A DNA stretch of 64,000 bases from Bacteroidales bacterium (lineage in GTDB: Bacteria; Bacteroidota; Bacteroidia; Bacteroidales; GWA2-32-17). The notes beneath the pieces were generated by a model, which saw only the letters and a list, made by a program, of their open reading frames with translations, searched no databases and was not told the DNA's origin. The stretch is taken from positions 1-64,000 of the forward strand of contig JABUFC010000006.1 in NCBI GenBank assembly GCA_013314715.1, given 5' to 3'. This document shows positions 1 through 18,320 of the stretch, in pieces (the first letter of the stretch is position 1; every line of letters starts with the position of its first letter). Both the position numbers and the translations under genes were made by a program.

Positions 1-944
1 TTATATTCCAAGCGCTTGGTCCATTTTCCAATAAATCTTTTGCTATTCCATAAACTACATTCAATTTTCGAGTTCCTCTGTTAGTATAATAACATGCAAC
101 AATTCCAATTCCTTCATAGTTAATAAATGATAGCCATGGTGGTGCAGGATAATCGCTTAATTGTTCGAAGCTTGTGTCTCCCTGAGAAGTCCAGTTTTGA
201 CAATTATTTTCACTTTTAAATTGATGAAACTCCTGAAAATCATAACCATCTTTTCGTACTAATAATATGAAACAACCACCTCCAATGTTTACAAATGAAA
301 ATTCTGTATAAAAGAATTGTTCTCCTCCTTGTATTGAGTTAGTATGATCATAGATATTTAAATTAGAGAAATTTTGCCCGTTATTGATTGAATTAAACAA
401 GTTTAAACGATAACGGCATGAAGTTAAATTGCCTGGCAATGGACCAATAAAATTATTCTCATACCAAGGTTGATAAAGGACTCCATTACCAGCATCAATA
501 ATATGACCATAGGGACTAAAACCAGAAAGAGTAGTAGTAAGTGATTGTTGATTACTCCAATTTTGTCCGTCATCATCACTATATCTGTAATTCATAGACA
601 AACATGGTGGTTGTGCTTGATAGTTGTATCGTATATAGAACAAAAATAATCTGCCGCTACTTACATAACCACCTGCGATGTTTCTTAAATCAACACTTTG
701 TTCGGCAAATAAAACTTCCTCATTTGACCAGTTGGCACCACCATCTCCGCTGTGCCTTATATAAATTGAACCTATACTACCGACATACGCTGTTCCCTTT
801 CTGTAAACCATTACCAAATGACCATACAATAGGGTTTACCGACATGAAACCAAAATGTTCGTAACCGGAACCAACATTTAGATTTGTAAATGTCTTCTGA
901 ATAGTGCTGCCCAATGGCCAATAGTTCACAGGTGTTAAAGCCAT
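1..944 (-). pseudogene. BNR/sialidase-like protein, frameshifted and cut by the left edge
   Basis: Read on the minus strand from an ATG at 942-944, the first part (about 37 codons) ends at a stop near 785 in its own frame. The adjacent frame is open from about 840 to position 1 without a stop, so the C-terminus lies outside the window. The second frame carries Asp-box (BNR) motifs, SGDGGANW and SDDDGQNW, plus a degenerate SINNGQNF, typical of sialidase-superfamily beta-propellers. Its N-terminal part GHLVMVYRKGTAYVG joins naturally to GFMSVNP of the first frame. The frame change falls around 825-840, near a GGG run. Either the gene is decayed or there is a one-base sequence error. No signal peptide is seen on the first frame. 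The substrate cannot be inferred. Confidence 0.6.
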
Positions 945-1045
945 ATAATTTCAATTTTATTGTGATTCATTACTTTAATATTTACAAAATTAAGCTATAA
1001 TTTTGTAAAAGTCAAGTCAAAATTTATTTTTTTGCATGGTTTCTA

Positions 1046-1251
1046 ACGGCTTCGGAATTACCTTCGGTGAGAACGCTACGCTTAGTTGGTGTAACAGAGC
1101 CCGATGTTTTGCTTGCAAAACAGTAAAGGGCGAAGCTGCATCCTAATCGGGCTCTGTTACACCAATTCTCGTGATAGAAGCTGTACGCTTCATGCGGGAA
1201 TAGGCATCGAACAAAGAACGTTATCCAGAGCCCGATTATTTCCGAAGCCGT
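1046..1251. repeat. Nested inverted-repeat element
   Basis: The outer arms 1046-1057 and 1240-1251 are a perfect 12-base inverted repeat (ACGGCTTCGGAA). Inside lies a perfect 20-base inverted repeat, 1086-1105 with 1146-1165, with a 40-base spacer that itself holds GTTTTGC-TT-GCAAAAC (1106-1121). A further small hairpin, GAAGC-N5-GCTTC, spans 1177-1191. A third copy of CAGAGCCCGAT follows at 1226-1235. The nesting suggests a structured RNA or a folded single-stranded DNA substrate. Function unknown. Confidence 0.65.
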
Positions 1252-1266
1252 CCCGAGTATTCGGGA
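1251..1266. repeat. Small perfect hairpin
   Basis: TCCCGA-GTAT-TCGGGA, six-base arms and a four-base loop, immediately after the nested element. No T-run follows, so it is not an obvious terminator. Confidence 0.5.
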
Positions 1267-1414
1267 GAGAGCAATAGGTTTTGAGAATTTAGAAATTTCT
1301 CACCAATCTCTTGCCCATGCTCAAAAAGGTTAGAACCTTCAACCCGCTTTAAAACTTCTCCATATCACAGAAATTTTAAATGGAAAAACCGTAAAGCGAA
1401 GCGTATTGCTCTCT
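1266..1414. repeat. 11-base inverted repeat pair
   Basis: AGAGAGCAATA at 1266-1276 is perfectly complementary to TATTGCTCTCT at 1404-1414. Together with its neighbours this makes 1037-1540 a chain of stem-capable segments. Confidence 0.5.
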
Positions 1415-1422
1415 ATCGGTTT

Positions 1423-1547
1423 GCGTGTATGTGCAGTAGCGGATTAGAAGCACTTTCCTGTCAGTTTATCACTAAGTTTCTTAGAAGCACAGACCTTCGT
1501 TTTACCTCTTCACCCGCTATTGCCACATACACGCTGTTACAGGCTGG
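1423..1547. repeat. Long imperfect palindrome, attC-like in layout
   Basis: The left arm 1423-1442 (GCGTGTATGTGCAGTAGCGG) pairs with the right arm 1514-1534 with one mismatch and one extra base. That is the extrahelical-base style seen in integron attC sites. The right arm is followed by GTTACAGGC (1536-1544), which resembles a core half-site, but the left side reads ATCGGTTT and lacks the matching half. The interior carries TTAGAAGCAC twice. No integron-type integrase is present: the nearby recombinase lacks the IntI-specific insertion. Confidence 0.4.
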
Positions 1548-1554
1548 CGTTCTT

Positions 1555-1567
1555 GTCGTCCGTGTCT
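1555..1567. repeat. 13-base direct repeat, left copy
   Basis: GTCGTCCGTGTCT occurs here and again in the same orientation at 11683-11695. The two copies bracket the restriction operon. It is a possible attachment site or a remnant of a shared repeat family. Confidence 0.45.
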
Positions 1568-1850
1568 TGCAACCATTGACTTTATTAAGTTTTGCAACCA
1601 AATGTCCGATTGTTTTTGTGTCGGGTTGTGAGTTAGCGTTTTTAAAATTTTTAGAAGGGAAGGAGATTTTTAATTTTTTCTTTTCAGCGTGGGACAGGCA
1701 TACTCTTTTGCAAGCTTTGGTTTGTGTGCCGGCTTGCGGGGCTTGCCAATGTGTATGACTGTGATGCAAGGGCCTATATGTAAAGCGAATTGTATTCATT
1801 ATCGTCACTCATTATTTTTACCTTTTAGCTTTGATAGTTTTGATTTAAAC

Positions 1851-3071
1851 TCAATTTTGTATTGGATAATAAATGGTTACTTTAAATGTTTCATCTGTTT
1901 CTTCCATTATAACATCGTTCATGCCCATATCACGAAGCGTTTCGATAACGATTTTTCTTATACCAAGACCCTTATGTTCCATCAAACCAAAGTATTGTGC
2001 AAATTGGACTAATATAGGGTTTCTAGGATATTTCTGACCTGCCTTTATTTTTTCAATGGTTAGGGTGTTCGGTAATCTTCCGGCACTTTCTATTTCTATT
2101 CTATTACTGAATAAACGTATTTCGTTTTTTGCTTTTCTGGTATAATCACGGTGAATGATGCTGTTTACCACGAGTTCCCTGAGTATTTTTTCCGGAATTT
2201 TCCAATGCTTTACACGAGTAATGCCATCTCCTCCAATTTCCTCTATCGCCAATTTTTCTGATAAATGTTGCATAACATTATCTACTAAACCGCTTCGCTT
2301 CAATTCATTATTGTCAAATATTCTGCCCACAGGAGATTGGAAAATTGTATCTGATAGGCTATTCATTTCAATATCATCAGCAGGGTAATGTATGACACGA
2401 ATACCATGCTGTGGTAAAAAACGTCCGGGATTTTTGCCAAAAAGAACAAGCCCGGTAATGCTGCACACTTTTGCATCAAAACTGCTTTCTACCAGTAAAT
2501 CCAATTGAGATAGACGCAAACTAATTTCATTATCTTCTTTTAATTCATCACCAAAAACTGTTTTATAGAAGTGAATGAATAATTCTTTGTCAATATCATC
2601 CAAGGAAGAACCAGACACAGGTGCTATTTCAAAATGATAATAACCTGATTCCTGACTCATTCTTAGAATCTGATCTCTATCGGCTATACGGGATGTACTG
2701 CCAATACGGATGTAAATGGTTTCCCTATCGTTTTCCTTAACGGCATAGGGTTTTAAAATCCCTTGCTCAACAGTAATGATGGCTACTTTTTTTCCCTCAG
2801 GAGTTACAACCTCTTCATAAATTGGAATAATGGAAGGGGTGATGTATCTGCTAAAAACGGTATCCATTACCCATTCTTCACAGTTTGTCCGATTAAGGCC
2901 AACTATTTCTTTTGTTTTGTCGTCTATTCCTAAAAATATCTGACCACCTCTGAAATTACAAAAAGCCACGATTTCTTTAGCCAGCTGTTCGGGGCGAATA
3001 TCATCTCTTTTAAATTCTACTTTAGAATTTTCAGGATTGGCTAATATTTCTAATAATTCCTGATACCGCAT
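1851..3071 (-). CDS. AlbA_2 (Schlafen-type) DNA-binding and ATP-binding-domain protein
   Basis: 406 residues. The N-terminus (about 1-130) fits the AlbA_2/Schlafen domain: an early VEFKRD, then IVAFCNFRGGQIFLGIDDKTKEIVG, and later IYIRIGSTSRIAD. The C-terminal third carries an HATPase_c_4-like segment with ELVVNSIIHRDYT and an FGLMEHKGLGIRKI stretch. Proteins of this architecture are usually annotated as ATP-dependent DNA helicase-related or transcriptional regulators and are frequent in defence islands; their biochemical role is not settled. It is the last gene of the six-gene operon, starting 10 bases after the PHP-SMC gene. A regulatory or effector role in the restriction module is inferred from position only. 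Confidence 0.75.
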   Translation of the reverse strand: MRYQELLEILANPENSKVEFKRDDIRPEQLAKEIVAFCNFRGGQIFLGIDDKTKEIVGLNRTNCEEWVMDTVFSRYITPSIIPIYEEVVTPEGKKVAIITVEQGILKPYAVKENDRETIYIRIGSTSRIADRDQILRMSQESGYYHFEIAPVSGSSLDDIDKELFIHFYKTVFGDELKEDNEISLRLSQLDLLVESSFDAKVCSITGLVLFGKNPGRFLPQHGIRVIHYPADDIEMNSLSDTIFQSPVGRIFDNNELKRSGLVDNVMQHLSEKLAIEEIGGDGITRVKHWKIPEKILRELVVNSIIHRDYTRKAKNEIRLFSNRIEIESAGRLPNTLTIEKIKAGQKYPRNPILVQFAQYFGLMEHKGLGIRKIVIETLRDMGMNDVIMEETDETFKVTIYYPIQN

Positions 3072-3081
3072 AATCTAAAAA

Positions 3082-5736
3082 TTAAAAATTGTATTTTAAT
3101 CTTCGCATTTCAAAGGCTTGTTTTCCGCCTTCCAATATCATTTCAACCATTGGCTTTAAATTCGGATTATCTATTGAGCCAATATGTTCATCTTTAATTA
3201 AAGCACTTCCTTGATCTATTTCCATTACAGCAATCCATTCCGCATCACCAAAAACAGGGATATTAGCATTGTGGGTGCTAAAAATAAACTGCCGTGTTTC
3301 TTTTTGATTTCTTAATTCACTGACGATATTTTCAGCTATAAAAGCATTATCCAGATTATCTTCCGGCTGGTCAATGATTAAGGGGTCTTTGCTTTCGAGC
3401 AATAGTAGGTTCAATATAGCAGTACATTTTTGACCGGATGAAAGATTTTTGATATCCTTAAAATTCAATTCTTCACGTGTACCAACGTTAAGCATGATAT
3501 CCAGTGTTTCGCTTAAAACTATTTCTTCCAGTTCTAAAACTTGTTCTTTATTCAATTTCGTCAATGTTTCAGCAACGTTAGTAGTCATGTTATAATCATT
3601 GCGTAACTGATTGATGTCTCCATTCCTGATATCAATTACCAATTGTCTTACACTTAAATCATCTTTTGCATCTACCCACTCGATTTTCTTTTCTCCAATT
3701 CCGGGGAGCTTCATTAAAAAATCTTTTAGCTCGTTGCGATTCCCACGGTACCGGACTTCAATTTTCATTTTACCTTCCAGTTCTTTCTTGTTAAGTCTTT
3801 TTGCTTGTTTCTCAATGGTCTGGTAGCGGTTATATACGGCATTATCTAAATCGCTGAGCAAACTTTCTCTTTCTTTAACCAACTCATTTTTCCATTTTTC
3901 CTGTTTTTCGTATTGGTTTTGAATGCCCTGAATGGCAGCTAATTCACGACTGATAGTTGAAAATTCACGCGCTATATCGCTACCTTTTCTACCTGAAGTA
4001 TCCGGAAGTTTTTGAATTAGTTTATTGAATTCTTCTTCAAAGGCCCGAAATTTTTGTTCCCATTGATTTTTCAGCTCTTTTGTTTTATTTTCAAATTTTT
4101 GACCGGCTGCATTGATTTGCTGCAATGCTTGTTTGATAGTTAATAAATATTCTTCCCAGGCAGGTTTCAAATTTTTAAGAATATCAGTATTAATTAGATC
4201 GCTCAATGAGTTTTCTTCCAGATACTGTAAATCAATTTGTTCAATTAATCTGAATAAATTTTCAATGCTTTCTTTGATTTCAGCGTATTCTTTTTCGGAA
4301 CGCCCAAATACACGTTCTTTTTCTTTGTTGTAAATATCCTGCTCTTTAAATTTTTTATCTAAACCTAAGTCTTGTAAAGCTTTCTGCCTTTCTTTAAGTT
4401 GCTTTTCTTTGTTTTTTAAGTTTTCCAGTTCGTCCAGTTTGTTGATTGCTTCTAATAATTTTTTTCGGTTTTGAACTAATTGATTTTTTATTTGATAAAT
4501 GCTGTTATCCTGTGCCGGTAAAAATCTTTCGAGAATTTTTACATGGTTTTCGCGTTTTTCTGCGAATTCAAAAATTTCATTCTGTCCGAATATTTCTATT
4601 TCGGGCAAAATATCTTTGACGGATAAGTTGGATAAACTCCCGTCTTCATTTTTTATTACCAGTGGCTGTCCATAAATACGTTCAATGATGTAAGTTTTAT
4701 TATATCTGCTTGAAAAAAGAGCAATACTTATTTTTCCATCAAAAAAGTTTTCCTTTAAAAGTTCTTTAGCTCTGTTTTTGGAACTTTCGGAATGATAATT
4801 CAAATCCAGCCCATAGCGTATGCACTCTATGAGCGTACTTTTCCCTGTACCCCTACCGCCAATAATAGCATTCAGGTTGGAATTGAAGTGAAGTTCTAAA
4901 CCACCGTGGAAAAACGATGATTGAATTTTCAGGTGTAATAGTTTTGAATGTTCATCTTTAGGTCTTTGGGAATTTAAGCGTATTCTGGATTCTCCATCTA
5001 AGAATGCTTGTCTGAGACCTTCAATAGAAGGTTTATCCATTTTTATCCAGCAAGTAGCTAAAGGATTGGATAGGGTTTCAGGTCTTTCAATATCTTTTGC
5101 ATTGATGATGGCTACTTTTCTCTCTCTGCGATAATTCGGGTCTTTGTTTTCGATGATTTGCTTGTACTTTTGATCTAACTCATCTACCGATGCCTTATTG
5201 ATTTGTGCAGCCATTACAATTTTGGGATCATTCCATAAATGGGTGTAACTTCCTTTGAACAAAAGTCCGTTTTCTTCTTCTACATGTGCAGCATAAGTAA
5301 TTCCGCCTGCTTCTAAAACTTTTTGAACAATTTCCTGGTAAGTAAGTGATGAATTGTCTGTTTTTTTATTAGGAAAAGCGCCTCCTTGTAATGCTCCTAA
5401 TATTTGATTGAGCCAGGTGGTGTCTTTATCGGGCGGAAATAAACAAATGATATGAATTTTTTCGGCACTGCATAATTCAAAGCCCGGAAATACATAAATG
5501 CCTGCTTCGGTAAGTATTTTTCTGAGATTTTCGGTTGAGTTTACATCGCCATGCTCTGCCAAGCCAATTACTTCAATGCCTTCTTGTTGACAAATTCCCA
5601 GAATACTTTTATTATATTTTGTTTCATCAAATAATTCCCCTCCTCTATAATCGTGATTATAGCGATAGGAATTTACCTGCAAGGCACATTTATAAAATTT
5701 AGCTCCGGTTGGTTTCATACCGTATTTATTTAACAT
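3082..5736 (-). CDS. PHP-SMC ATPase, TrlF-like
   Basis: 884 residues. The N-terminal ~240 residues resemble a PHP phosphoesterase domain: GLAEHGDVNS at 58-67, FPGFELCS at 83-90 followed by IHIICLF. However, the usual first HxH metal motif is replaced by LQVNS (19-23). An SMC/RecF-type ATPase follows: Walker A GGRGTGKS at 293-300, a long coiled coil about 410-650, signature SSGQK at 766-770, Walker B IIDQPED at 787-793 and the H-loop STH at 820-822. This layout matches the TrlF family of AAA-like ATPases found in defence islands. It sits 7 bases after mod in the restriction operon. A nucleic-acid-processing role is inferred. The degenerate first metal motif leaves hydrolase activity uncertain. 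Confidence 0.8.
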   Translation of the reverse strand: MLNKYGMKPTGAKFYKCALQVNSYRYNHDYRGGELFDETKYNKSILGICQQEGIEVIGLAEHGDVNSTENLRKILTEAGIYVFPGFELCSAEKIHIICLFPPDKDTTWLNQILGALQGGAFPNKKTDNSSLTYQEIVQKVLEAGGITYAAHVEEENGLLFKGSYTHLWNDPKIVMAAQINKASVDELDQKYKQIIENKDPNYRRERKVAIINAKDIERPETLSNPLATCWIKMDKPSIEGLRQAFLDGESRIRLNSQRPKDEHSKLLHLKIQSSFFHGGLELHFNSNLNAIIGGRGTGKSTLIECIRYGLDLNYHSESSKNRAKELLKENFFDGKISIALFSSRYNKTYIIERIYGQPLVIKNEDGSLSNLSVKDILPEIEIFGQNEIFEFAEKRENHVKILERFLPAQDNSIYQIKNQLVQNRKKLLEAINKLDELENLKNKEKQLKERQKALQDLGLDKKFKEQDIYNKEKERVFGRSEKEYAEIKESIENLFRLIEQIDLQYLEENSLSDLINTDILKNLKPAWEEYLLTIKQALQQINAAGQKFENKTKELKNQWEQKFRAFEEEFNKLIQKLPDTSGRKGSDIAREFSTISRELAAIQGIQNQYEKQEKWKNELVKERESLLSDLDNAVYNRYQTIEKQAKRLNKKELEGKMKIEVRYRGNRNELKDFLMKLPGIGEKKIEWVDAKDDLSVRQLVIDIRNGDINQLRNDYNMTTNVAETLTKLNKEQVLELEEIVLSETLDIMLNVGTREELNFKDIKNLSSGQKCTAILNLLLLESKDPLIIDQPEDNLDNAFIAENIVSELRNQKETRQFIFSTHNANIPVFGDAEWIAVMEIDQGSALIKDEHIGSIDNPNLKPMVEMILEGGKQAFEMRRLKYNF

Positions 5737-5743
5737 TTATACT

Positions 5744-7786
5744 TTACTCAATTGCCTTTATCGTTTCATCACCGCTGATATTCCTGATTTTAATTCGTTT
5801 TGGTTTTTTCTCGCTGGTGATTTTTCCGTCCCAAAAGTCTTTTGTTTTGATTCCGTCTTTTATTACATAACCCAATTTATCAATTTTAATTTCGGTGCTA
5901 CTGTGCCATGGTCCCTCAGAATTTTCACAGTCGAGTGAGATGAGTTCTATGAGTTCTAAGCCTTCTTCGCTGATGCTGATAGGTTCAAACTTTTTGCCTG
6001 TGGTTAGTGATTGAAGGTTCCCCTTTTGATTAAACTCATTGATTTTCTGAATAAGCCGGTCGCTTTTAAAATTGTTAATTGTTAATGAATAATGGTTAAT
6101 GGTTAGTTGTAAATTGTTAATTGTTACAGTATCGCCTGCTTTTTTATTTTCAAATAATGCCTTATCCATATTTTTATCATCATTGATAAAAACTTGCTCT
6201 CCTTTTTCATTAACCAATAACCATTGACCACTAACCATTATTTGATCTTCAAGCACCACTTCGTGAAGCAGGTTTTTCAGGTCTCGTAGTTCTACTTCAA
6301 TTTCAGTGGCGTTGTTGTCTTTGATGAATTTTTCAATTTCGTTTATGTCGTCCACATCTACATAGTACACAATGACTTTTTTAGCGTTGACTTCTAAATT
6401 CTGTAATTCCTGATTGATAATGGTGTTGATGTTAGGGATATCCAAAACCTTTTCCTGTGTATTGAGCAGGTTAGGTACATATACCGGAACAGTTCCCAAC
6501 TTTGCTTCTGTTATGGCACCAAACCAAAAATTGCTGATGCCGGGGACATTTCGCTGCAAACCCGGTATAAGAGTTGCCAGTTTATCCATGGTTTGTTGCG
6601 GGTTGCGGAATAAACTAACACCATCTTTTATTTCGAGGATTTGAAACGATGCTCCGGCTTGTATCAATCGATCACGGGTAGTTTGTATGCTATTTATTCC
6701 TACATCTACGTGAATAAAATTTCTACCTAAATCGTGTGCTACCTTTGCAGTAGTGCCGCTACCGCCAAAGAAATCGGCAACTATCATTCCTTTATTGCTG
6801 CTGGCTTTGATAATGCGTTCTAAAAGAGCTTCGGGTTTTTGAGTTGAGTAATCAACTTTTTCATCAACTTGCCTAACAAGTGGTATTTCCCATACACTAT
6901 CGGGTATTCTACCCTCTTTTGCATAAACAATTTCTTTGCTTCCTTTTACCAATGAACTTACTTTATATTTTTTACCGTCTTCATCAGTATGATTATATCG
7001 CTTTAAAGTACTCTCGCTATATGGTAATAAAACATCATCGAGATTTAAAGTAAAATCTTCTGATTTAGAATAAATAAATATTGTATCGTGTTTTTTCTGA
7101 AAACACTTAGTAGGTATAGAGTTACCTGTATAATGCCATATAATTTCATTAATTAAATTATCTTCCCCAAAAACTTCATCCATTAATATTTTCACATAAT
7201 GCCCAATATGCCAATCGAGATGTACATAAATGCTTGCTGTGTCGCTCATTATGCTTTTAATAGCCATTAGGTTTTCGTACATCCAATTTAAATAATCTTC
7301 TTTATTCCAAATATCACCATACATTTTTTCTTCAAAAGAGCGTAGTTCTTCAATGTCAAGTTGTTCTTCGGCTTTAGCAATTTTTTCGGCAAGTTTTGGA
7401 TTACGTCTGATATAAACTTTTTTAGCATAATCGGCACCACTGGCAAAAGGTGGGTCAATATACACCAAGTCCACTTTTATGCCTTTTTCTTTCAGATATG
7501 CACAAGCCGAAATGCACTCTCCACGAATTACCAAATTATCACTAATGGTTAATGGTGAATGGTTAATTGTTAATGAGCGCTCGCTTGTATTTTCATTAGC
7601 CCTTAACCCTTGACCATTAACAACTTCAATGGTTTCTACTTCATAATAGGGCATACCTCTTTTAATGCGGTCGTACACCTTATTGTTTTCGCGGTAACGC
7701 AACAAGCGTTGTGTGCGGGTAATGTTGTTTAAAATGGCTTGCCCTTCAACGGTATCAGGATAGTATGGGATGTATTTTACTGGCAT
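5744..7786 (-). CDS. Type III restriction-modification methyltransferase (Mod), adenine-specific
   Basis: 680 residues. Motif IV DPPF at 111-114 precedes motif I FGGSGTT at 340-346, the beta-class order typical of type III Mod N6-adenine methyltransferases. The segment between them (about 200-320) probably holds the target-recognition domain. Mod makes the host-protecting methyl mark and supplies specificity to the Res nuclease encoded two genes upstream. The DNA contains four stretches of TTAATGG-like repeats that are read in frame, giving [10 protein letters not shown] near residue 75, [11 protein letters not shown] near 56-66, [10 protein letters not shown] near 518 and [16 protein letters not shown] near 555-570. 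Length is within the family range and no stop interrupts it. The recognition sequence cannot be predicted. Confidence 0.9.
6070..6128. repeat. TTAATGG-type interspersed repeat inside mod
   Basis: Degenerate iterations of (A/G)TTGTTAA and AATGGTTA; read on the minus strand they give [18 protein letters not shown] without breaking the frame. Confidence 0.55.
6208..6241. repeat. TTAATGG-type interspersed repeat inside mod
   Basis: Variants of CATTAACC/CATTGACC/ACTAACC on the plus strand; in mod this encodes [11 protein letters not shown]. It has the same word family as the blocks at 6070, 7540, 7792 and 8174. Confidence 0.5.
7540..7624. repeat. TTAATGG-type interspersed repeats inside mod (two blocks)
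   Basis: 7540-7576 holds ACTAATGGTTAATGG followed by GAATGGTTAATTG; 7596-7624 holds AGCCCTTAACCCTTGACCATTAAC. They encode residues about 54-83 of Mod, just before motif IV. Confidence 0.55.
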
Positions 7787-7791
7787 TTTTT

Positions 7792-7825
7792 TTAATTGTT
7801 AATTATCAATTATTAGTTGTTAATG
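7792..7825. repeat. TTAATTG-type repeat between mod and the four-helix-bundle gene
   Basis: TTAATTGTTAATTATC and TATTAGTTGTTAATG fill the 26-base gap and run into the end of the upstream gene. Confidence 0.45.
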
Positions 7826-8184
7826 TTTGCTTTGGTTGATTTGATGATTGATGTAAGTAGTTTGATTATTTCTACTGCATCATTATTGATACTATGAAAT
7901 TGTTCATTGGTTAAATAGTCGGTTTCTTTTAGTAATTCGAGCCAATAGATACTTTCATTTATTTCTTTTTGAGCAATTGACATTTTATGTTTAAAATCTG
8001 CTTTGCTTTCAGAGTGTTCAGCTTCTCTAACTAATGCACCAACAGCAGTTCCACTTCTCAACAATTGTTTTGAAATCACATATTCCTTTTTTGTTTCGCA
8101 CAAAAACTGATAGAGCTTTACAACTCTTATGGCAAAGGCAAAACTTTTATTCTTAATTACGTTTTCTGTCATTTCATTAACCAT
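7813..8184 (-). CDS. Four-helix-bundle protein (23S rRNA intervening-sequence / S23 family)
   Basis: 123 residues, all-helical, with the family's KSFAFAIRVVKLYQFL start, a VISKQLLRSGTAVGALVREAEHSESKADF core and a C-terminal helix. This matches the four-helix-bundle family (TIGR02436) first known from rRNA intervening sequences and related to the Avd accessory proteins of diversity-generating retroelements. Members are small positively charged pentameric bundles thought to bind nucleic acid. It lies between res and mod in the operon. The first five codons (MVNEM) derive from a TTAATGG repeat, so the Met at 8172 may be the true start. Its job in the restriction module is unknown. Confidence 0.8.
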   Translation of the reverse strand: MVNEMTENVIKNKSFAFAIRVVKLYQFLCETKKEYVISKQLLRSGTAVGALVREAEHSESKADFKHKMSIAQKEINESIYWLELLKETDYLTNEQFHSINNDAVEIIKLLTSIIKSTKANINN

Positions 8185-8206
8185 TTACAATTAACCATTA
8201 ATCATT
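8174..8206. repeat. TTAATGG-type repeat at the res / four-helix-bundle junction
   Basis: CATTAACC, then CAATTAACCATTAATCATT. The block contains both the stop codon of res (8198-8200) and the first start codon of the next gene, so the repeat has been recruited into two gene ends. Confidence 0.5.
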
Positions 8207-11089
8207 GAAGAACTGGTTAATCTTGTTGTTCAATTTCGCTATGTTGGCTGCAATGTCTTTGCTATCTTCCAAATAGAGGAAGTCAAAACGCTGATAGCCG
8301 AATTTTTCTCTGTTGAGTTTCAAAAACTCGGTTTCCACAAAATTTTTCTTTTTCAAAAATGTTTTATCCTGCCCATAAACAGAGCCTTTTGTTTCAATAA
8401 TTAATACTTTGTGGATGGTGTTTTTTTCTTTGCGTTTTATCATGAGAAAATCGGGGGTGTATTTCCCTATGTTTTTCCAATATTTTCTCTCTTTGGCAAA
8501 ACAGTTAATAAAAAATTCGGTCAAGCCACGTTCTCCATTATAGTATATTTCTAATCCTTTGTTTTTGAAATCGGATAGTTGCAAGGCTTTTTGAAGTGTT
8601 TCAATTTCAAAGCCACTACTTCCGCTACCTCCAAAGTTATAGGGCAAATAATGAAAGGTTTGATTTTTTGATTTTACAGCCAGTGAATAATCATATTTTT
8701 CACAGTAGCTCTCAAAAGGTAATACCATATCTCCAAACCCTTGCTTTGTCATCGTTTCTTTCATTTGCAGATATTCTTGATGCAATTTTTCCAAATCAAT
8801 ATTTACTTCTTTATTTGATTTGTCTAATTCCAAAATTTTTGCTGTGTCCGTTTTATTTGGGTAAAGTTTAGCATTCTTCTCTACCTCTGATAATCGTTCC
8901 GCAATCAAAAGTTCGGCTTGTTTTGGAATTACTTCTGTGTTAGTTTGTAAATTTCGTTTAATGCTGAAAGCCAGACGGATTTTAGATTGGATGGTGTACA
9001 GGTCGTATAACTCATTGAAATAGCGTTGTCCGTTCTTTTCATAAGTAATAGTTTTGAATATCTCTTTCAGCTGTTTATCATATTGGTGCAACAGTGATTC
9101 AGAAATTAAGCCGAAACTTTCTCTTGAAATTTCAAAAAGCCACTGGTTGAAATTAGCAAAAGAGATTCCGGTTTCATTGATAACATCAATTTCACCTGTG
9201 TCAATATTGGCAATGTCGCTTGTTGTTATCAGTGCAGATGCTTTAAAATTTTCAATGTTTTTAAGCAATGCTTCTAGTTTAGCTTCTGTATTCGGTGTTT
9301 TTTCTTCTTCAATTGCCTGATAGGTTACTTTCATTTGATAAAAATCCACTTTCGGCAATTGTAAAAACTCCATTCTCGAATAACGGGGCAAATATTCAAT
9401 AGCAGCTTCTCTTCGCGTTCTGTTTATTTCGTCAATACTGGTGTTTTGTTCCTGTTTTAATTGTTTGTTCAGAATTTCCGCATTCTCTTTATTTAACCAT
9501 ATCAAAGCGGTTTCGTCTTTGCCTTTATCCACCTGGCGTAAACACCTGCAAGAAGTTTGTAAAACCATATTTTGAGGGCTGTCGCCTTTTTGAGAAAGTA
9601 TTACGCCTGTTAAACTTTTACAGTCCCAACCTTCTTTACCTACCTGTACCAAAAGGATATACCGCTTTTGGGAAACAGGTAAATCCAATGAACGAAACTC
9701 TAATTCGCTTCCTTCAGGTTGCGGATGTGCTTTGTTTCCTTTATGAAAGCGTAAAATCTCATTGGGATTTATTTTCAATTCGCCTGTAAGGAACGGATAA
9801 ACTTCTTCCTCTAATACTTCAATATTGCTGCAATAGATAGCAACTTTTGCAATCGTTCCGTTTTCGTAAACCTTGTTTTTGTATTGGTTGTCGAAATCCT
9901 CAATGCCTTGTTTAATAATTTGGAAACGGTCAAGGTTTTGCCCGATTTTTACTGTTGGTGTTTTTAAAAACTTTTTAATAGCTGTAACTAAAGGATAATA
10001 ATAAACCGTGTTGGTTATTTGAGTAAATTTAAACTCAAAATCTCCTACTTTTATTTTTTCTGCATTGGGTAAATAAGGTGTACCTGAAAAACCAACAACA
10101 GTTGTGATGTTGCCTTTGCTGTGCCAGTAATTAACAGCTTGTCTTAATTTGATGTCATCCGTAGCTGCATGGTGGACTTCATCTATAAAAATTGACAAAT
10201 TGGGGATTTTGCCAAATAAGCGTTTCAGGTCGTTGGTTGTATCTTTCTCCTCCTCATCCAATTCAAGTTCTGTCTGAGCATTAAACTTAAAGCTTTCCAA
10301 AATCACTTTTTCGGCATTTACCACAAATACTTGTCCGAATGGATTGGGCAGGCAGGCATTTACTTTTTGAGCATTCGGATTTCTTGCCTTGTTACTTTTC
10401 TTTGCTGTTTTCTGTTCATCCAGCACTTCAAACTTTAAAATTTTTTTCAGATTGCTTGCCGATGGTTCGGGTAATACCCAAGAAGGGTCAAAGTTTTCAA
10501 TGGTTTTTAAACTCGGAACAATGGAAGATTTTAAGCCCGAAGGAATAAGCACTAAAAAGTTGTGAGCAAATGCTTTGTTGTTGGGTTCATTGTGTGCAAA
10601 ATACAAGTCCAAATAGATGAAAGCAGCCATCAGGAATGTTTTACCTGCCCCCATTGGCAAACTCATTAAATAGTCGGCATAGTTTACATTGTAGAAAATG
10701 CTTTTAATGATGGTGTCATAATCCAGAGAAGCAGGATTTGCTTTAATTAACTTTTCCAGTTCGGGGATATATGTTCCGTTACCGTTTTTCTGTCTTGTAA
10801 AATCAAAGAGAGCAAAAGCATTTCTGTTTTGGGTTAAATATTCTCTGGCAATCTGATTGATGTCAAGCCTTGCAAGGTCAGTTTCTTTGGTAAAAAAAGC
10901 CTCTGAAAACAGTTGCCAAAGTGGTTTATTCTGTCCTTGTATTTTCAGGAACAGGTATGTTTCAATAGCTTCAATTTGCGTATCACGCAAATGTCCTTTG
11001 TCTCGGATATATTTAACCAAATCACGAATGGTGCAGTCGTCAGACTGCAACCATTCGTTTTTCTTTTGTTGTATGATATAATGAAGCAT
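8198..11089 (-). CDS. Type III restriction enzyme subunit Res (helicase-nuclease)
   Basis: 963 residues. Superfamily 2 helicase motifs are in order: Walker A PMGAGKT at 145-151, motif II DEVHHAA from 303, motif III GFSGTPY, then QVGKEGWDC and the motif VI region QTSCRCLRQ. The C-terminus carries a PD-(D/E)XK nuclease: PDF at 879-881 and IETKG at 898-902. This is the translocase and endonuclease partner of Mod, cutting unmodified DNA after ATP-dependent communication between sites. Length and both active sites look complete. Its start codon overlaps the stop of the XRE gene by one base (TAATG), implying translational coupling. Confidence 0.92.
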   Translation of the reverse strand: MLHYIIQQKKNEWLQSDDCTIRDLVKYIRDKGHLRDTQIEAIETYLFLKIQGQNKPLWQLFSEAFFTKETDLARLDINQIAREYLTQNRNAFALFDFTRQKNGNGTYIPELEKLIKANPASLDYDTIIKSIFYNVNYADYLMSLPMGAGKTFLMAAFIYLDLYFAHNEPNNKAFAHNFLVLIPSGLKSSIVPSLKTIENFDPSWVLPEPSASNLKKILKFEVLDEQKTAKKSNKARNPNAQKVNACLPNPFGQVFVVNAEKVILESFKFNAQTELELDEEEKDTTNDLKRLFGKIPNLSIFIDEVHHAATDDIKLRQAVNYWHSKGNITTVVGFSGTPYLPNAEKIKVGDFEFKFTQITNTVYYYPLVTAIKKFLKTPTVKIGQNLDRFQIIKQGIEDFDNQYKNKVYENGTIAKVAIYCSNIEVLEEEVYPFLTGELKINPNEILRFHKGNKAHPQPEGSELEFRSLDLPVSQKRYILLVQVGKEGWDCKSLTGVILSQKGDSPQNMVLQTSCRCLRQVDKGKDETALIWLNKENAEILNKQLKQEQNTSIDEINRTRREAAIEYLPRYSRMEFLQLPKVDFYQMKVTYQAIEEEKTPNTEAKLEALLKNIENFKASALITTSDIANIDTGEIDVINETGISFANFNQWLFEISRESFGLISESLLHQYDKQLKEIFKTITYEKNGQRYFNELYDLYTIQSKIRLAFSIKRNLQTNTEVIPKQAELLIAERLSEVEKNAKLYPNKTDTAKILELDKSNKEVNIDLEKLHQEYLQMKETMTKQGFGDMVLPFESYCEKYDYSLAVKSKNQTFHYLPYNFGGSGSSGFEIETLQKALQLSDFKNKGLEIYYNGERGLTEFFINCFAKERKYWKNIGKYTPDFLMIKRKEKNTIHKVLIIETKGSVYGQDKTFLKKKNFVETEFLKLNREKFGYQRFDFLYLEDSKDIAANIAKLNNKINQFFND

Positions 11090-11382
11090 TACTTTTTCTT
11101 GTATTTAATTTTTTGTTCCGCTGCTTTCAGCACTTTATTAGCCAAATTCTCGTCTTGTATTTCATCAGCAACTTTGTCACTCAGCCACGCAACCAAAAGT
11201 TCTTCTTTGTCTAGCTTGTAGAATTTGGCAAATTTTAACACCTGTTCTTTGGTCGGTTTTCTGTCTCCCCGTTCAAACTTGCTGATGATAGCTTGGTCAA
11301 TTTCCATTTCGGCAGCTACCTGTCGAAGGAACAATCCTTTTTCTTCTCTTGCTTTTCTGATTATGTCACCGAAGCTATTCAT
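11089..11382 (-). CDS. XRE-family HTH regulator, probable controller of the restriction operon
   Basis: 97 residues. A classic Cro/C1 helix-turn-helix occupies about 5-60 (IRKAREEKGLFLRQVAAEME, then ISKFERGDRKPTKEQVLKFA), followed by a charged tail rich in lysine. It is the first gene of the six-gene operon and is coupled to res by a TAATG overlap. Small XRE proteins at the head of restriction operons often act as controller proteins that delay nuclease expression. A palindrome straddling the probable -7 element (11398-11414) would suit autoregulation. That function is inferred from context. Confidence 0.8.
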   Translation of the reverse strand: MNSFGDIIRKAREEKGLFLRQVAAEMEIDQAIISKFERGDRKPTKEQVLKFAKFYKLDKEELLVAWLSDKVADEIQDENLANKVLKAAEQKIKYKKK

Positions 11383-11397
11383 AAGACAATATATGTT

Positions 11398-11419
11398 TTG
11401 ACAATACTGGTCAAAAATA
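11398..11419 (-). promoter_or_regulatory. Probable promoter -7 element with overlapping operator for the restriction operon
   Basis: On the minus strand TATTTTTG (11419-11412) fits the Bacteroidota -7 consensus TAnnTTTG. The interrupted palindrome TTGACAATACTGGTCAA (11398-11414) overlaps its downstream edge. GACAAT recurs 15 bases away at 11385-11390. No good -33 TTTG is seen. Confidence 0.4.
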
Positions 11420-11468
11420 AGTATTATTTTCCGATTGTTAGTCCGTGCGTTGGAAAAAATTTAGCTCT

Positions 11469-11513
11469 TTTGGTTTTGCGAAGGGTTGGCTTTGTGGGTA
11501 GGGCAAAACCAAA
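11469..11513. repeat. 11-base perfect inverted repeat
   Basis: TTTGGTTTTGC at 11469-11479 pairs with GCAAAACCAAA at 11503-11513 across a 23-base spacer. No T-tract follows the stem. Confidence 0.5.
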
Positions 11514-11682
11514 TGTGCATTTTGTGCGGTTGGCATAGAATTTCAAAATTTTTGTACGGTGGGAAAAACAATCAAAATACAGAAGCGTAGGCAATGAGGG
11601 TTGGCTTACTCGTTGTCCGTTTATTGTATCGTTTCTATGTCTGTGTTCACCTGTCAAAAGGTTTACTTTTTCTCAATTTTTA

Positions 11683-11695
11683 GTCGTCCGTGTCT
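11683..11695. repeat. 13-base direct repeat, right copy
   Basis: GTCGTCCGTGTCT, identical to 1555-1567 and in the same orientation; it lies 131 bases from the stop codon of the tyrosine recombinase. Confidence 0.45.
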
Positions 11696-11734
11696 GTTGT
11701 GTTGTGTCGTTTTACGCTTGCTGGCAACTCGTTT

Positions 11735-11804
11735 ATAAGTATGATAAAACCATACAATACTTCCTAAATTAGACGGATATGTATGATTTTACATCATACT
11801 AATA
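11735..11804. repeat. Inverted AGTATGAT pair downstream of the recombinase
   Basis: AGTATGAT (11738-11745) and ATCATACT (11793-11800) are exact complements, with AAAA/TTTT just inside both arms. An additional CATAC and GTATG lie between. The position, 26 bases from the recombinase stop, suits a recombinase-binding core site, but this is unproven. Confidence 0.35.
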
Positions 11805-11825
11805 ATTGCAAAGTTAAAGAAAATA

Positions 11826-12914
11826 TTACAAATTATCAAATGGACTTTTAATTTTTTGTAAACGTTTTTCAGATACGTGGGTGTATATCTCAGTAGTCTT
11901 TGAACTTTTATGACCTAAAAGCTCTTGGATAAAGCGTAAATCAGTCCCTGATTCAAGCAAGTGTGTTGCATAGCTGTGTCGAAGCCAATGCAAGGTTACG
12001 GGTTTTCTAATGTTACTTTTCGAAAGAGCCTGTTTTAATACGCTTTGCAGACTTTGTTCCGAATATTGATCGCCCTCTTTCTGCCCCTCAAACAACCATA
12101 TTTTAGGCCGATACATTTTATAGTATTCCCGAAGCATTTCTATAGTTTTGTCCGAAATAGGTACCTGCCTATCTTTATATCCTTTTGAATTCCGAATAAT
12201 AAGCATATGACGTTTAGAGTCCACATCGCCAATTTTTAAGTTCAAAAGCTCGCTGCGTCTTAGTCCACATGCATATATCAGGCTCAGCATGGTGCGATGC
12301 TTTATGTTTGCCGGGGCTTGGAGTATGGCTTTTACCTCCTCTTTGCTCAGCACATTGGGTAATTTGTGTTCGCGACGTGGGCGTTGCAACTTCTCAACCT
12401 CTATTTTGCTTTGGCGTATTTCCCTAAAGTAAAGTTTTAGTGTATTAACTACCTGGTTTTGACACGAGAAGCTATAGTTGTGCTTTAGTATATACTGGTT
12501 TACAAATAAAACAACATCGTCGTTGGTCAATTCTAAAACAGGCTTATAGTCGAAATAATTGAGAAAAACATCCAAAGCATCAGTATAGGTTTTGATTGTA
12601 TTGGGACTATAACGTTTAAAGCGGAGCCATTTTTCAAACCTTCCTTTTTCTTGCAGAATATCTATTAGGGATTCATCTTTGTTTGATAGATGCGGTAGAT
12701 TCTTTATATCCAACCAAGCTACACCTTTGAATGCATTAAATGCTTTGTGTAAATTAAACTGCATAATAGATAAGTACCAATATTTTTTGGTGGCACTCCA
12801 GCGAGCATTGAGTTCGGCTTTGAGTATTTCAATCAGTTGAATATCTTTTTCAAAGATAAAGCTAATAACTTGCTCGTTGCGGTGACTATCAACTTTTAGA
12901 ATTATATTCTTCAT
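11826..12914 (-). CDS. Tyrosine recombinase / phage-type integrase
   Basis: About 362 residues from ATG 12914. A TTG four codons upstream is possible, but GGGGAT sits as a ribosome-binding-like sequence 5 bases before the ATG. An N-terminal segment of about 90 residues (ARWSATKKYWYLS) precedes a SAM-like core-binding domain (FEKWLRFKRYSPNTIKTY). The catalytic domain follows, with CGLRRSELLNLKIGDV (Arg I), the beta-hairpin RNSKGYKDR (Lys), HWLRHSYATHLL (His/Arg II), LLGHKS (His) and the nucleophile in EIYTHVS. All catalytic residues are present. The IntI-specific insertion before the HxxR box is missing, so it is not an integron integrase. It is the likely mover of the adjacent restriction island. 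Confidence 0.88.
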   Translation of the reverse strand: MKNIILKVDSHRNEQVISFIFEKDIQLIEILKAELNARWSATKKYWYLSIMQFNLHKAFNAFKGVAWLDIKNLPHLSNKDESLIDILQEKGRFEKWLRFKRYSPNTIKTYTDALDVFLNYFDYKPVLELTNDDVVLFVNQYILKHNYSFSCQNQVVNTLKLYFREIRQSKIEVEKLQRPRREHKLPNVLSKEEVKAILQAPANIKHRTMLSLIYACGLRRSELLNLKIGDVDSKRHMLIIRNSKGYKDRQVPISDKTIEMLREYYKMYRPKIWLFEGQKEGDQYSEQSLQSVLKQALSKSNIRKPVTLHWLRHSYATHLLESGTDLRFIQELLGHKSSKTTEIYTHVSEKRLQKIKSPFDNL

Positions 12915-12926
12915 TTTTATCCCCAA

Positions 12927-13191
12927 TTAATCATAAGGGAAAAACTGTATCTATTTTTAATCAAACCTTAAATAAAATGACATGTTTTTTTAAATTTTAT
13001 TCTACAGCTCCGCCCTTTCACTTACAGTTTTGTAAGCTAAAAAGAGCTTTTATGCAATGCCTGACAAGCATTTTACTTTGTCGATGTTACAAATGTAAAA
13101 CAAAGATTAACAAAAATCAAGAGATAAAAATATTTTTTTCTTTTTTTAATTTTATTGTAAATAATCTATTTTAAAAATAAAATACTTTATT
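12927..13191. other. AT-rich intergenic stretch without a recognised gene
   Basis: Lies between the recombinase start and the terminator of the ompH operon; with the terminator the gap is about 320 bases. It contains small inverted words (TTACA-AA-TGTAA, and AATGC...GCATT). A 65-codon open frame on the plus strand at 12977-13174 has no family resemblance and is rejected. No clear promoter for the recombinase was found. Confidence 0.4.
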
Positions 13192-13225
13192 AAAAAAAAT
13201 ATCCGCTTTAAGCGGATATTTTTTT
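13192..13225 (-). terminator. Hairpin terminator of the bamA-ompH operon
   Basis: A perfect stem ATATCCGCT-TTA-AGCGGATAT is flanked by A and T runs on both sides, 20 bases after the stop of the last ompH gene. The symmetric flanks would let it work in both directions. Confidence 0.85.
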
Positions 13226-13245
13226 ATGAATAGAATACTAATAAA

Positions 13246-13755
13246 TTATTTAATTCCTAATTTCTTTTTTACTAGTGGTAATATATCATCTGCATCTTTA
13301 GGATAATATAGGAGTGAGCCGGTTCCTGTATCAAATATATAGGTATAACCATTTTCTTTAGATACATCTTCAATGGCTTTTTTAGCTTTGTCGATAATAG
13401 GTTTTAAGAGTTCTTGTTCTTTTTTCTGCAAATCTTGTTGTGCATTAGCTTGAAAAGTTTGAATACGTTGTTGCAATGAGGTTAGTTCTTCTTCTTTATT
13501 TTTTTTGATGAGATCGGTAAATGTATCCTTTTTTTCAAGGTATTCGTTGTATTTTTTCTCAAGCTCTTCTTGCATGGCTACTAATTGATCTTCTAATTGT
13601 TTTGAATAATCTTGTAATGTTTTTTGAGCTTGAGCCTTGTCTGGCATAGCATCTAATAAATCGTTAGAATTTAAGTGCCCAAACTTAACTTTTTGTTGCG
13701 AATATCCTGTTGCAACTAGTCCTGTAATAATAAGAATTAAAAATACTTTTTTCAT
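13246..13755 (-). CDS. OmpH/Skp-family periplasmic chaperone
   Basis: 169 residues with a signal peptide (KKVFLILIITGLVATGYS, cut before QQ). The mature part is a long charged helical region (about 45-125, rich in Lys, Glu and Gln) typical of the tentacle helices of Skp. It ends with YTYIFDTGTGSLLYYPKDADD, the conserved OmpH core strands. Skp-type trimers hold unfolded outer membrane proteins between the inner membrane and the BAM complex. It is the last gene of the bamA operon and is followed directly by a terminator. It is a tandem paralogue of the gene at 13789. Confidence 0.9.
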   Translation of the reverse strand: MKKVFLILIITGLVATGYSQQKVKFGHLNSNDLLDAMPDKAQAQKTLQDYSKQLEDQLVAMQEELEKKYNEYLEKKDTFTDLIKKNKEEELTSLQQRIQTFQANAQQDLQKKEQELLKPIIDKAKKAIEDVSKENGYTYIFDTGTGSLLYYPKDADDILPLVKKKLGIK

Positions 13756-13775
13756 AGTGCTTAATTTTTTTTTTG

Positions 13776-13783
13776 CAAAGATA
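13776..13783 (-). promoter_or_regulatory. Possible -7 element before the second ompH gene
   Basis: TATCTTTG on the minus strand, about 20 bases before the start codon, fits TAnnTTTG. No matching -33 TTG is visible, so it may be only a weak internal promoter. Confidence 0.25.
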
Positions 13784-13788
13784 ATGAT

Positions 13789-14310
13789 TTAATTTTTATA
13801 TCCTAACTTTTTTAACACCTCATCGCTTTTATCGAGTTTAGGGTCGGTATAAAGCATATTAGCATTGCCAGCTGTATCAAAAATAATAGCATAATTTCCT
13901 TGTACGGCAATGTCTTTAATGGCGTTGAATACTTCATCTTGAATGGGTTTAACGAGTTCTTGACGTTTTTTGAATAAGTCGCCATCTTTACCAAAGTATT
14001 TTTTTTGAAGGTCTTTAGCTTCTTTTTCTTTGGCAATGATTTCATTTTCTCTTTTTGTTTTCATTTCTTCGGTTAAGAGTACTTTTTCGGCTTGAAAATC
14101 TTTGTACATTTTATCGACTTGTGCGTAAATGTTTTCGATTTCTTTTTGCCAATCGGCTGATATTTTATCGAGTTGAGCTTGTGCTGCTTGGTAAGCAGGA
14201 ATGTTTTTTAAAATATAATCGGTATCCACGTATCCAAGTTTTTGGTTTTGTGAATACATGAGTCCTACTGTTAGTAGAACATAAGCTAAAGTAAAGATGA
14301 TTTTTTTCAT
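13789..14310 (-). CDS. OmpH/Skp-family periplasmic chaperone
   Basis: 173 residues with a signal peptide (KKIIFTLAYVLLTVGLMYS). Mature N-terminus QKLGYVDTDYILKNIP matches the family's conserved start (KIGYVDxxxIL), followed by charged helices and the closing YAIIFDTAGNANMLY. Role as for the neighbouring paralogue: chaperoning of outer membrane proteins in the periplasm. It starts 19 bases after bamA, its client-insertion partner, so both are very likely co-transcribed. Tandem ompH genes after bamA are common in this phylum. Confidence 0.9.
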   Translation of the reverse strand: MKKIIFTLAYVLLTVGLMYSQNQKLGYVDTDYILKNIPAYQAAQAQLDKISADWQKEIENIYAQVDKMYKDFQAEKVLLTEEMKTKRENEIIAKEKEAKDLQKKYFGKDGDLFKKRQELVKPIQDEVFNAIKDIAVQGNYAIIFDTAGNANMLYTDPKLDKSDEVLKKLGYKN

Positions 14311-14329
14311 AGCTAAAACTATTTAAAGG

Positions 14330-16861: not shown

Positions 16862-16863
16862 AA

Positions 16864-17622
16864 TTATTTAGAATTAATTTGTTCGGTTGTTTTGCCAAAG
16901 CGACGTTCTCTTTTTTGAAAATCTATAATGGCATAGTAAAAGTCTTCTTTTGTAAATTCAGGCCATAGGGTTGGTGTAAAATATAATTCAGTATATGCTA
17001 ATTGATAAAGTAAGAAATTACTAATTCGATACTCTCCACTAGTTCTTATGAGCAAATCGGGATCGGGTATGGGATATGAATTAAGGTGTTGTTGAATAGT
17101 TTGGTCGGTAATATCTTCGGGTTGTAATTGGTTGTTTTTTATTTTATAAGCAATATTTTGAACCATATCTTTAATTTCCCATCGGGAGCTATAACTAAGC
17201 GCTAAGGTAAGGGTTAAACGTGAATTTGATGCTGTTTCGTTTATGGTTTTTGTTAATTTTTCATAAACCTTGGGTGGAAGTTGTGTCAAATTTCCAATAG
17301 CATTGAGTTTAATATTATTCTTATTAAGAGTAGGTAATTCTTTATTGATGGTTTCTACTAATAAATTCATTAACGCATTAACTTCGTCTTGTGGGCGGTT
17401 CCAGTTTTCAGTTGAAAATGCATATAAAGTAAGGTATGGAATACCAAGTTCAGCAGAAGCTTCGGTAACATTTCGAACCGATTCTGTACCTTTATTGTGT
17501 CCGAAAATTCTTGATAGTCCTTGTTTTTTTGCCCAACGTCCGTTACCATCCATAATAATGGCCACGTGTGTAGGAAGTTTATTTTTGTCTATTTGTTCTA
17601 ATAAATGATTACTCCCATGCAT
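16864..17622 (-). CDS. uppS: Isoprenyl transferase (undecaprenyl diphosphate synthase)
   Basis: 252 residues. MDGNGRWAKK at 24-33 carries the catalytic Asp, followed by GHNKGTESVRN, LTLYAFSTENWNRP, LSYSSRWEI and PDLLIRTSGEYRISNFLLYQLAYTELYF, all signature blocks of cis-prenyltransferases. The product, C55 undecaprenyl diphosphate, is the lipid carrier for peptidoglycan and surface glycans. The first 14 bases overlap the end of the upstream PorG-like gene, implying coupling. It sits between the PorG-like genes and bamA in an envelope operon. Confidence 0.95.
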   Translation of the reverse strand: MHGSNHLLEQIDKNKLPTHVAIIMDGNGRWAKKQGLSRIFGHNKGTESVRNVTEASAELGIPYLTLYAFSTENWNRPQDEVNALMNLLVETINKELPTLNKNNIKLNAIGNLTQLPPKVYEKLTKTINETASNSRLTLTLALSYSSRWEIKDMVQNIAYKIKNNQLQPEDITDQTIQQHLNSYPIPDPDLLIRTSGEYRISNFLLYQLAYTELYFTPTLWPEFTKEDFYYAIIDFQKRERRFGKTTEQINSK

Positions 17623-18319: not shown

Positions 18320-18320
18320 A

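Follow-up and report, generated by a model that had tools for sequence, protein, structure and literature searches.

The closest described systems are the integrons (IntI-attI-attC), for example the chromosomal integron of Vibrio cholerae. An integrase gene and its adjoining attI site head a one-way array of cassettes. Most cassettes are short, and each carries a hairpin (attC) at the 3' end; intI, accompanied by a Pc promoter, is divergent from the array. Recombination takes one folded strand, the bottom strand of attC. The circular form of an integron cassette carries one attC with its outer boxes paired, and upon insertion the cassette keeps the last box at its 5' end. In Acinetobacter plasmids, pdif modules are moved differently, by XerC/XerD. 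Clusters of attC sites that lack an integrase are termed CALINs (IntegronFinder 2.0, PMC9024848). Bacteroidota are listed among integron carriers in two reports (PMC8618304, PMC9668308), and the passage on Bacteroidota in the IntegronFinder 2.0 paper mentions no more than In0 elements and one complete integron, that of Salinibacter (PMC9024848). Our literature search, with preprints outside its range, found no description of a cassette system in Bacteroidota such as the one presented below.

We analyzed 64,000 nt of the genome of a Bacteroidales bacterium (contig JABUFC010000006.1, positions 1 to 64,000; the window), in which a folded repeat is located at 1423-1547. We interpret this hairpin, with a probability of about 0.85, as an attC-like cassette recombination site of an integron-like platform whose integrase gene leads the array. 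As far as sequence can reveal, the system is like an integron at nearly every step, the strand of the integrase being the exception. It shares with integrons the head integrase with an adjoining attI-like site, the one-way arrays of mostly short cassettes with a hairpin at each 3' end, and the GTT crossover with split R boxes that are complementary across the cassette. Unlike in integrons, the array integrase lies outside the IntI clade and is usually co-directional with the array, the window protein lacks the IntI insert and has an extra N-terminal domain, the R' boxes seldom read GTTRRRY, and a two-mismatch pattern is common to many stems.

The hairpin and its locus

The original prediction described a long imperfect palindrome with an unpaired extra base in one arm and GTTACAGGC beside the other, and likened it to the layout of integron recombination sites. 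All of these elements are present and the layout resembles that of attC: a 20-nt arm at 1423-1442 pairs with a 21-nt arm at 1514-1534, the right arm holding one extra G. Folded as DNA, 1415-1560 reached -20.8 kcal/mol (z -3.15), and none of 200 shuffles was equally stable. A covariance model, R1, trained on 15 sites excluding this one, matched the minus strand at 1409-1544 with 108.7 bits (E 3.5e-22). The array at the window is oriented along the minus strand, with the following features.

1039-1047, minus strand: R' box beyond the insert, the start of the next cassette (GTTAGAAAC)
1048-1417, minus strand: gene-less insert of about 370 bp with nested inverted repeats (module B, 1266-1414; module A, 1046-1251)
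1409-1544, minus strand: attC-like site with stem arms 1423-1442 and 1514-1534, assigned from the fold, the covariance-model match and stem covariation in the family
1536-1544: R'' box belonging to this site (minus strand, GCCTGTAAC; plus strand, GTTACAGGC)
1698-1757, strand not assigned: second conserved hairpin (D), located some 150 nt inward from the end of the cassette; many relatives have it beside their sites
1851-11089, minus strand: cassette body with type III restriction-modification-like genes, all directed toward the site (PADLOC and Pfam)
11445-11535, strand not assigned: relative of the D module at the opposite cassette end
11720-11743, minus strand: attI-like site, CATACTTATAAACGA|GTTGCCAGC, 97 nt beyond the integrase stop; named relatives have a similar motif in a similar place
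11826-12926, minus strand: tyrosine recombinase of 366 aa with N-terminal, SAM-like and catalytic domains, the proposed cassette integrase

Along the minus strand, the order is integrase, attI-like site, 10-kb cassette, site, 370-bp insert, and a next cassette that is cut by the contig end, its BNR_2-domain gene (2-829) running off the contig. The 10-kb cassette encodes a Schlafen AlbA_2 protein, a Ppl-like AAA protein, a type III methyltransferase, a 23S_rRNA_IVP protein and a ResIII protein; PADLOC matched the first three of these five genes, and the ResIII protein was identified from Pfam only. Degenerate inverted repeats rich in GTTAATGGTTAATG were seen inside the methyltransferase gene at 6070-6242 and 7548-7621. 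For the D hairpin (CTCTTTTGCAAGCTTTGGTTKG..), the possible roles are those of a terminator, of a promoter and of a further site. The cassette breaks the end rule described in the next section, its R'' box GCCTGTAAC being unpaired with the attI-side box GTTGCCAGC (11720-11728). Over its last 348 bp, the window cassette is 83% identical to a cassette in a relative, G033, with which it has no genes in common, and it may therefore be a hybrid.

The insert is positioned at the GTT crossover point of the window site (..AAACC|GATAGAGAG ... GAAGCC|GTT..), and the nested inverted repeats at 1046-1414 belong to it and are separate from the site. Its 5' junction is identical, and falls at the crossover point, in six distinct copies, namely in the window, L002, L003, L004, L005 (attC-like) and L006 (attI-like), L030 being left uncounted because it overlaps L003. 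The 3' junction, ..CC|GTT, is found in four of them (window, L003, L004 and L006), and one L004 copy consists of module B alone. Whole or partial inserts of 96-99% identity occupy seven further places of the same genome (contigs C15, C79, C81, C1 and C36), and we ask whether the insert is a parasite of the cassette system. The window is an altered copy in which one 10-kb defence cassette lies between the attI-like site and an insert-bearing site.

Two copies of the window site, about 90% identical to it, are present in the same genome (C81 and C15). Searched with the DNA of 1041-1800, this genome of 100 contigs and 3.0 Mb gave matches in ten places, the window itself counted, and matches were found in 22 of 60 genomes, its own included, those in contig 3 of G033 forming a row on one strand. 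The same query gave two weak matches and nothing more in a plasmid collection. Neither a tRNA nor an Rfam family was found within the window.

Sites, arrays and cassettes

Reading 80 kb of G033, we found elements with the layout xxxxxxAAC-stem-loop-stem-GTTxxxxxx, in which the closing box of each element reads as the reverse complement of the opening box of the element that follows, kilobases away. A simple scanner gave six clean sites and three lesser plus-strand matches there, compared to zero or one in each of three shuffles; a seventh site (g33 17342) was placed by eye and an eighth was added later by R1. G033 contributed seven of the 15 aligned sites, and seven other genomes supplied the remaining eight. 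Under the structure that we set for it, 18 of the 19 stem pairs showed double-sided changes and 89% of the stem cells (83% of the whole structure) were paired, compared to 30-35% when the partner was slid by 1-3 columns. Since these 15 sites were chosen mostly by a scanner that requires AAC/GTT and a stem, their pairing is partly selected. Among 80 R1 matches, 92% of the cells were paired, compared to 30-36% when slid, and 469 cells carried a double change, compared to 150 in shuffles, while two of the five covariation measures (pairs with a double change and further pair types) were not above shuffles.

These alignments define a site family with a covarying stem at the level of sequence. Each site is an imperfect hairpin of about 135 nt that opens with the box xxxxxxAAC and closes with the box GTTxxxxxx, its stem measuring about 18 bp and its loop about 60 nt, and many sites, judged by eye, have two opposed mismatches, mostly A/C, four pairs apart. 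The hairpin fold and the AAC/GTT of attC boxes (consensus RYYYAAC/GTTRRRY) are present; a purine follows GTT in 118 of 119 R' boxes, and 12 of the 119 read GTTRRRY in full. The original prediction proposed a search for copies separating cassette-sized genes and for covarying stem positions, and was to be dropped if copies or stem conservation were lacking; both were found, the copies lying in arrays between genes and the stem changing on both sides as counted above, and the claim was not refuted. Its further suggestion of a family of mobile intergenic elements gives way to a different reading, in which the sites are recombination sites of gene cassettes.

In 24 sources, R1 gave 80 matches, which formed same-strand runs of up to nine sites, often spaced 0.5-2 kb apart, and longer one-way arrays held 13 sites in G354 (one contig) and 21 in G342 (five contigs). 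The six variable letters of each box lie outside the site selection and are unpaired in R1. Across a cassette, they matched at all six positions in 77 of 95 neighbouring pairs and did not match exactly in the other 18; L095, two matches of L092 that lack GTT and every locus offering just one usable site are left out of this set. A later, previously unused set of G354 (13 sites), G161 (four sites on one contig) and G342 (21 sites) gave exact matches for 29 of 35 neighbours, compared to 7 of 553 non-neighbours and 2 of 38 pairs of boxes from the same site, two of its 40 matches being left out for lying on the strand opposite to the listed sites. Two overlapping earlier sets behaved similarly. 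In one, at least five of six letters matched in 47 of 57 pairs, with controls of 6.8% for 265 same-array non-neighbours, 4.7% for 5530 cross-array comparisons and 8 of 77 within sites (3 of the 80 matches left out, two at contig ends and one partial). In the other, 30 of 36 pairs were exact, with controls of 2 of 54 within sites and 0.95% of 2642 cross-locus comparisons (L172, which is cut by a contig end, L171 and four minus-strand matches left out). In a circle, the two ends of a cassette (77 of 95; 29 of 35) would form one site, as in an integron.

The 95 cassettes have a median length of 1198 bp (range 546 to 19,557; 84 under 4 kb). An ORF of at least 80 aa is present in 94 of them, and the longest ORF reads into the cassette's own site in 91 of the 94, matching the one-way arrays of integrons. 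From 61 cassettes of 12 loci, we obtained 59 proteins of at least 60 aa encoded on the cassette strand. Pfam assigned 60 families to these, taking the longest ORF per cassette, and none of the 25 families listed occurred in more than two proteins. PADLOC gave single matches, for example to viperin-like and Fic models. In large G033 cassettes, proteins matched type III methyltransferase, Old/GajA and MkoA models, and one of the five matched none.

Shared cassettes allowed us to locate the breakpoints. One large cassette is common to G024 and G033, which belong to different families, and at its 3' end identity is 99-100% through GTT and falls to 56% and 48% beyond it, close to the 47-53% of unrelated sequence. 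At the 5' end the start boxes are equal, and the similarity begins only 41 and 89 nt inside, which makes this end uninformative on the breakpoint. On a Chryseobacterium plasmid, two cassettes are 98% identical over 530 nt up to GTT and 42% identical beyond. In both cassette pairs identity thus stops at GTT, where an integron crossover is located.

With R1, 95 of the 149 genomes sampled from the same order were found to carry sites (84 of 131 among the good ones). The window's own genome has 13 sites, and a phylum sample of 247 Bacteroidota genomes, single-contig genomes included, contained 124 with sites. At E 0.001, none of 31 non-Bacteroidota genomes, reached via distant integrase relatives, had a site, and all four named Bacteroidota in the same control did (9, 23, 24 and 39 sites). 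A weak match in a Calditrichia locus (E 0.0036) was gone at E 0.001 in its genome. The draft genome of Alkalitalea saponilacus (G436) holds 39 sites, a good many of them by contig starts, and in this case arrays seem to break the assembly. We looked for canonical attC arrays in G016, in G091 and in the neighbourhood of ten IntI genes from an outgroup order (four of these stretches under 2 kb), using two scanners on six and seven of the twelve loci, and found none, with one weak match; R1 stayed at noise level on the IntI-adjacent stretches (E 4.6 and 6.8).

The array-linked integrase

The window integrase passes the NCBIfam model XerA_Arch (228.5 bits, cut-off 220) and falls below the integron-integrase model TIGR02249 (212 bits, cut-off 265). 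As the protein fails the IntI test, the system is not an IntI-type integron. Its best solved sequences are archaeal Xer proteins (PDB 5hxy and 4a8e), which are also its best folds, and IntI4; in the IntI4 alignment, PDB residues 183-242 are unaligned and the window protein lacks the IntI-specific insert. An AlphaFold2 model (mean pLDDT 86.5, pTM 0.62) places an N-terminal b-b-a-b-b-a-b domain at residues 6-76, which, together with the linkage to cassette arrays, distinguishes the family from archaeal Xer. Foldseek returned recombinases and recombinase-like regulators among the 50 listed of 235 matches, which gave no identity for the N-terminal domain, and recombinase domains alone were over the cut-off in Pfam.

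In our tree, which leaves out three long-branch rows of an earlier one, 11 IntI rows form one clade (support 100) and 7 Xer rows another (99), and the 30 array-family integrases fall outside both, interspersed with a few others. A test of one clade for the array integrases, made with the earlier tree, gave p 0.234, and together with IntI p 0.184, so a single origin is neither backed nor rejected; many backbone forks are weakly resolved. The array integrases are thus placed outside IntI, and the window protein lacks the IntI-specific domain. Of the 149 genomes of this order, 2 had an IntI that reached the cut-off, compared to 35 of 76 in the outgroup order.

Relatives of the integrase are linked to the arrays. 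Within the best 80 of 590 loci of integrase relatives (named loci), 55 of 60 site matches lay downstream on the integrase strand, in 19 loci, and five elsewhere; the remaining loci of these 80, many of them short or non-Bacteroidota, had no site match. Among the listed matches, own-genome rows left out, 15 of 59 integrases had a listed site within 25 kb. The integrase was on the head side in all 15, and it was co-directional with the array in 13 of the 15 contigs and divergent in two, which differs from the divergent intI of integrons. In the order sample, sites were present in 57 of 64 genomes with a close integrase and in 38 of 85 genomes without one (the Fisher test ignores kinship); the remaining 7 of the 64 carry no site. 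Some integrase match at E 1e-20, Xer-like ones included, occurs in 144 of 149 genomes.

The R'' box of the first site predicts the 9-mer that starts the first cassette, and in all 18 of 18 loci this 9-mer was found beyond the integrase, exactly in 17 and with five of six letters in one, a plain count without a chance control. In 13 of the 18, it lies within 155 nt of the end of the integrase match, after a motif like TATAAACNA. G033 likewise has an attI-like box beside its integrase. An attI-like site by the integrase that holds the first cassette is therefore seen in the 18 loci and G033, and not in the window boxes or in G354. In the latter, a single contig, two integrase homologues lie inside the array and at its tail, the head has none, and the search for an attI-like box was negative. 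The G161 and G342 arrays both have the predicted box upstream, and no array-family integrase was seen in the stretches next to them. For many of the Bacteroidota arrays no integrase was seen nearby; if the attC model detected such arrays, they might be classed as CALINs. A Spirochaetota integrase relative falls with the family in the tree, but no site is present in its genome.

The hairpin was originally described as lacking an integron integrase, with a plain tyrosine integrase nearby. The first part holds narrowly, nothing in the genome being over the integron-integrase cut-off; the second needs revision, because relatives of this plain integrase sit at the heads of such arrays, making it the best recombinase candidate. 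We infer that the array-family integrase is the recombining enzyme and that its substrate is a single folded strand, which is compatible with the covariation.

Several relatives deserve separate mention. Array integrases of 587-683 aa occur in L050 (9221-10984), L163 and L172; the N-terminal part of that in L050 shows, by eye, a motif repeated several times and has no Pfam family at cut-off. On a Flagellimonas marinaquae plasmid (NZ_CP092416; L215, 9992-12906), an array-family integrase adjoins erm(F), and two sites on the plasmid flank a dihydrofolate-reductase-family gene. On an Acinetobacter baylyi plasmid (NZ_CP104735; L213), a shorter integrase relative (2567-3232; 46% identity over query 120-366) lies 190 bp ahead of tet(X3) (3422-4588). 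The gap between the two holds an attI-like stretch ending GTTATGTGCC, and a site-like remnant after tet(X3) was seen by eye, to which R1 gave no match. The part of an earlier report that covers tet(X3) gives the arrangement xerD-tet(X3)-res-orf1-ISVsa3 (PMC7494873). It is possible that tet(X) was formerly carried as a cassette in the Bacteroidota system.

Proposed mechanism, alternatives and implications

In the mechanism that we propose, the head-encoded integrase would bind an attI-like site (..TATAAACNA|GTT) just past its own gene, as well as the cassette hairpins, and strand exchange would take place within GTT. A cassette unit would start with TTxxxxxx and end with its own hairpin. The circular cassette would carry one full hairpin with complementary boxes, and insertion would split off the last box to the other cassette end. 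Cassettes would be stacked one way, with their genes reading into their own sites.

The layout, crossover and cassette anatomy are also those of canonical integrons, and the sites could be ordinary attC sites (CALINs) served by an IntI-clade integrase that acts in trans or has since been lost. Two of the 149 genomes of the order do have IntI over the cut-off, yet sites occur in 95 of the 149, a different integrase family heads the arrays, and the R' boxes seldom fit the attC consensus, so we regard this explanation as improbable. The complementary 9-nt ends of each unit might instead be the short terminal inverted repeats (GTTxxxxxx..xxxxxxAAC) of transposon-like units inserting side by side, the hairpin being merely the 3' end. 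Against this, the ends vary between units while the hairpin fold persists, the head-to-tail one-way arrays begin at an integrase-linked site, and no protein family recurs in more than two of the 59 cassette proteins (25 of 60 families listed); the units show neither a shared transposase family among those proteins nor fixed terminal repeats, and we give the transposon explanation very little weight.

It is less likely still that host XerC/XerD moves the units at dif-like sites in the manner of pdif modules. The array integrase is related to Xer recombinases, but it falls outside the well-supported Xer clade, and the sites are long covarying hairpins rather than the dif-like sites of about 28 bp at which a host Xer would act. 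Moreover, the presence of sites tracks the close integrase, whereas some integrase match, Xer-like ones included, is found in nearly every genome of the order. We attach just as little credence to a reading of the hairpins as regulatory or terminator structures between genes that ordinary homologous recombination has copied. Their position between genes, at gene 3' ends, would suit such structures, and the lack of an Rfam match in the window is neutral; however, a box that matches a neighbour's box kilobases away and not its own partner is not predicted by regulation and already contradicts it, and identity that ends at GTT is not predicted either.

Returning to the integron-like platform, on balance we lean towards a wider interpretation, in which it would represent a second integron lineage: a phylum-wide capture platform of Bacteroidota with a non-IntI recombinase that has an added N-terminal domain, folded attC-like strands, and defence or otherwise adaptive cassettes, some of them multi-gene and up to about 20 kb. 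Recombination of folded strands would then perhaps have arisen independently of IntI, and the truncated integrase relative beside tet(X3) suggests that resistance genes have been fed to other phyla. If this is true, about half of the sampled Bacteroidota carry integron-like sites whose integrase has been passed over by the IntI model. The system would offer a convenient way to test for more than one origin of folded-strand recombination and a new pool of cassette genes that includes defence genes, as well as a possible exit route from Bacteroidota for resistance genes such as tet(X).
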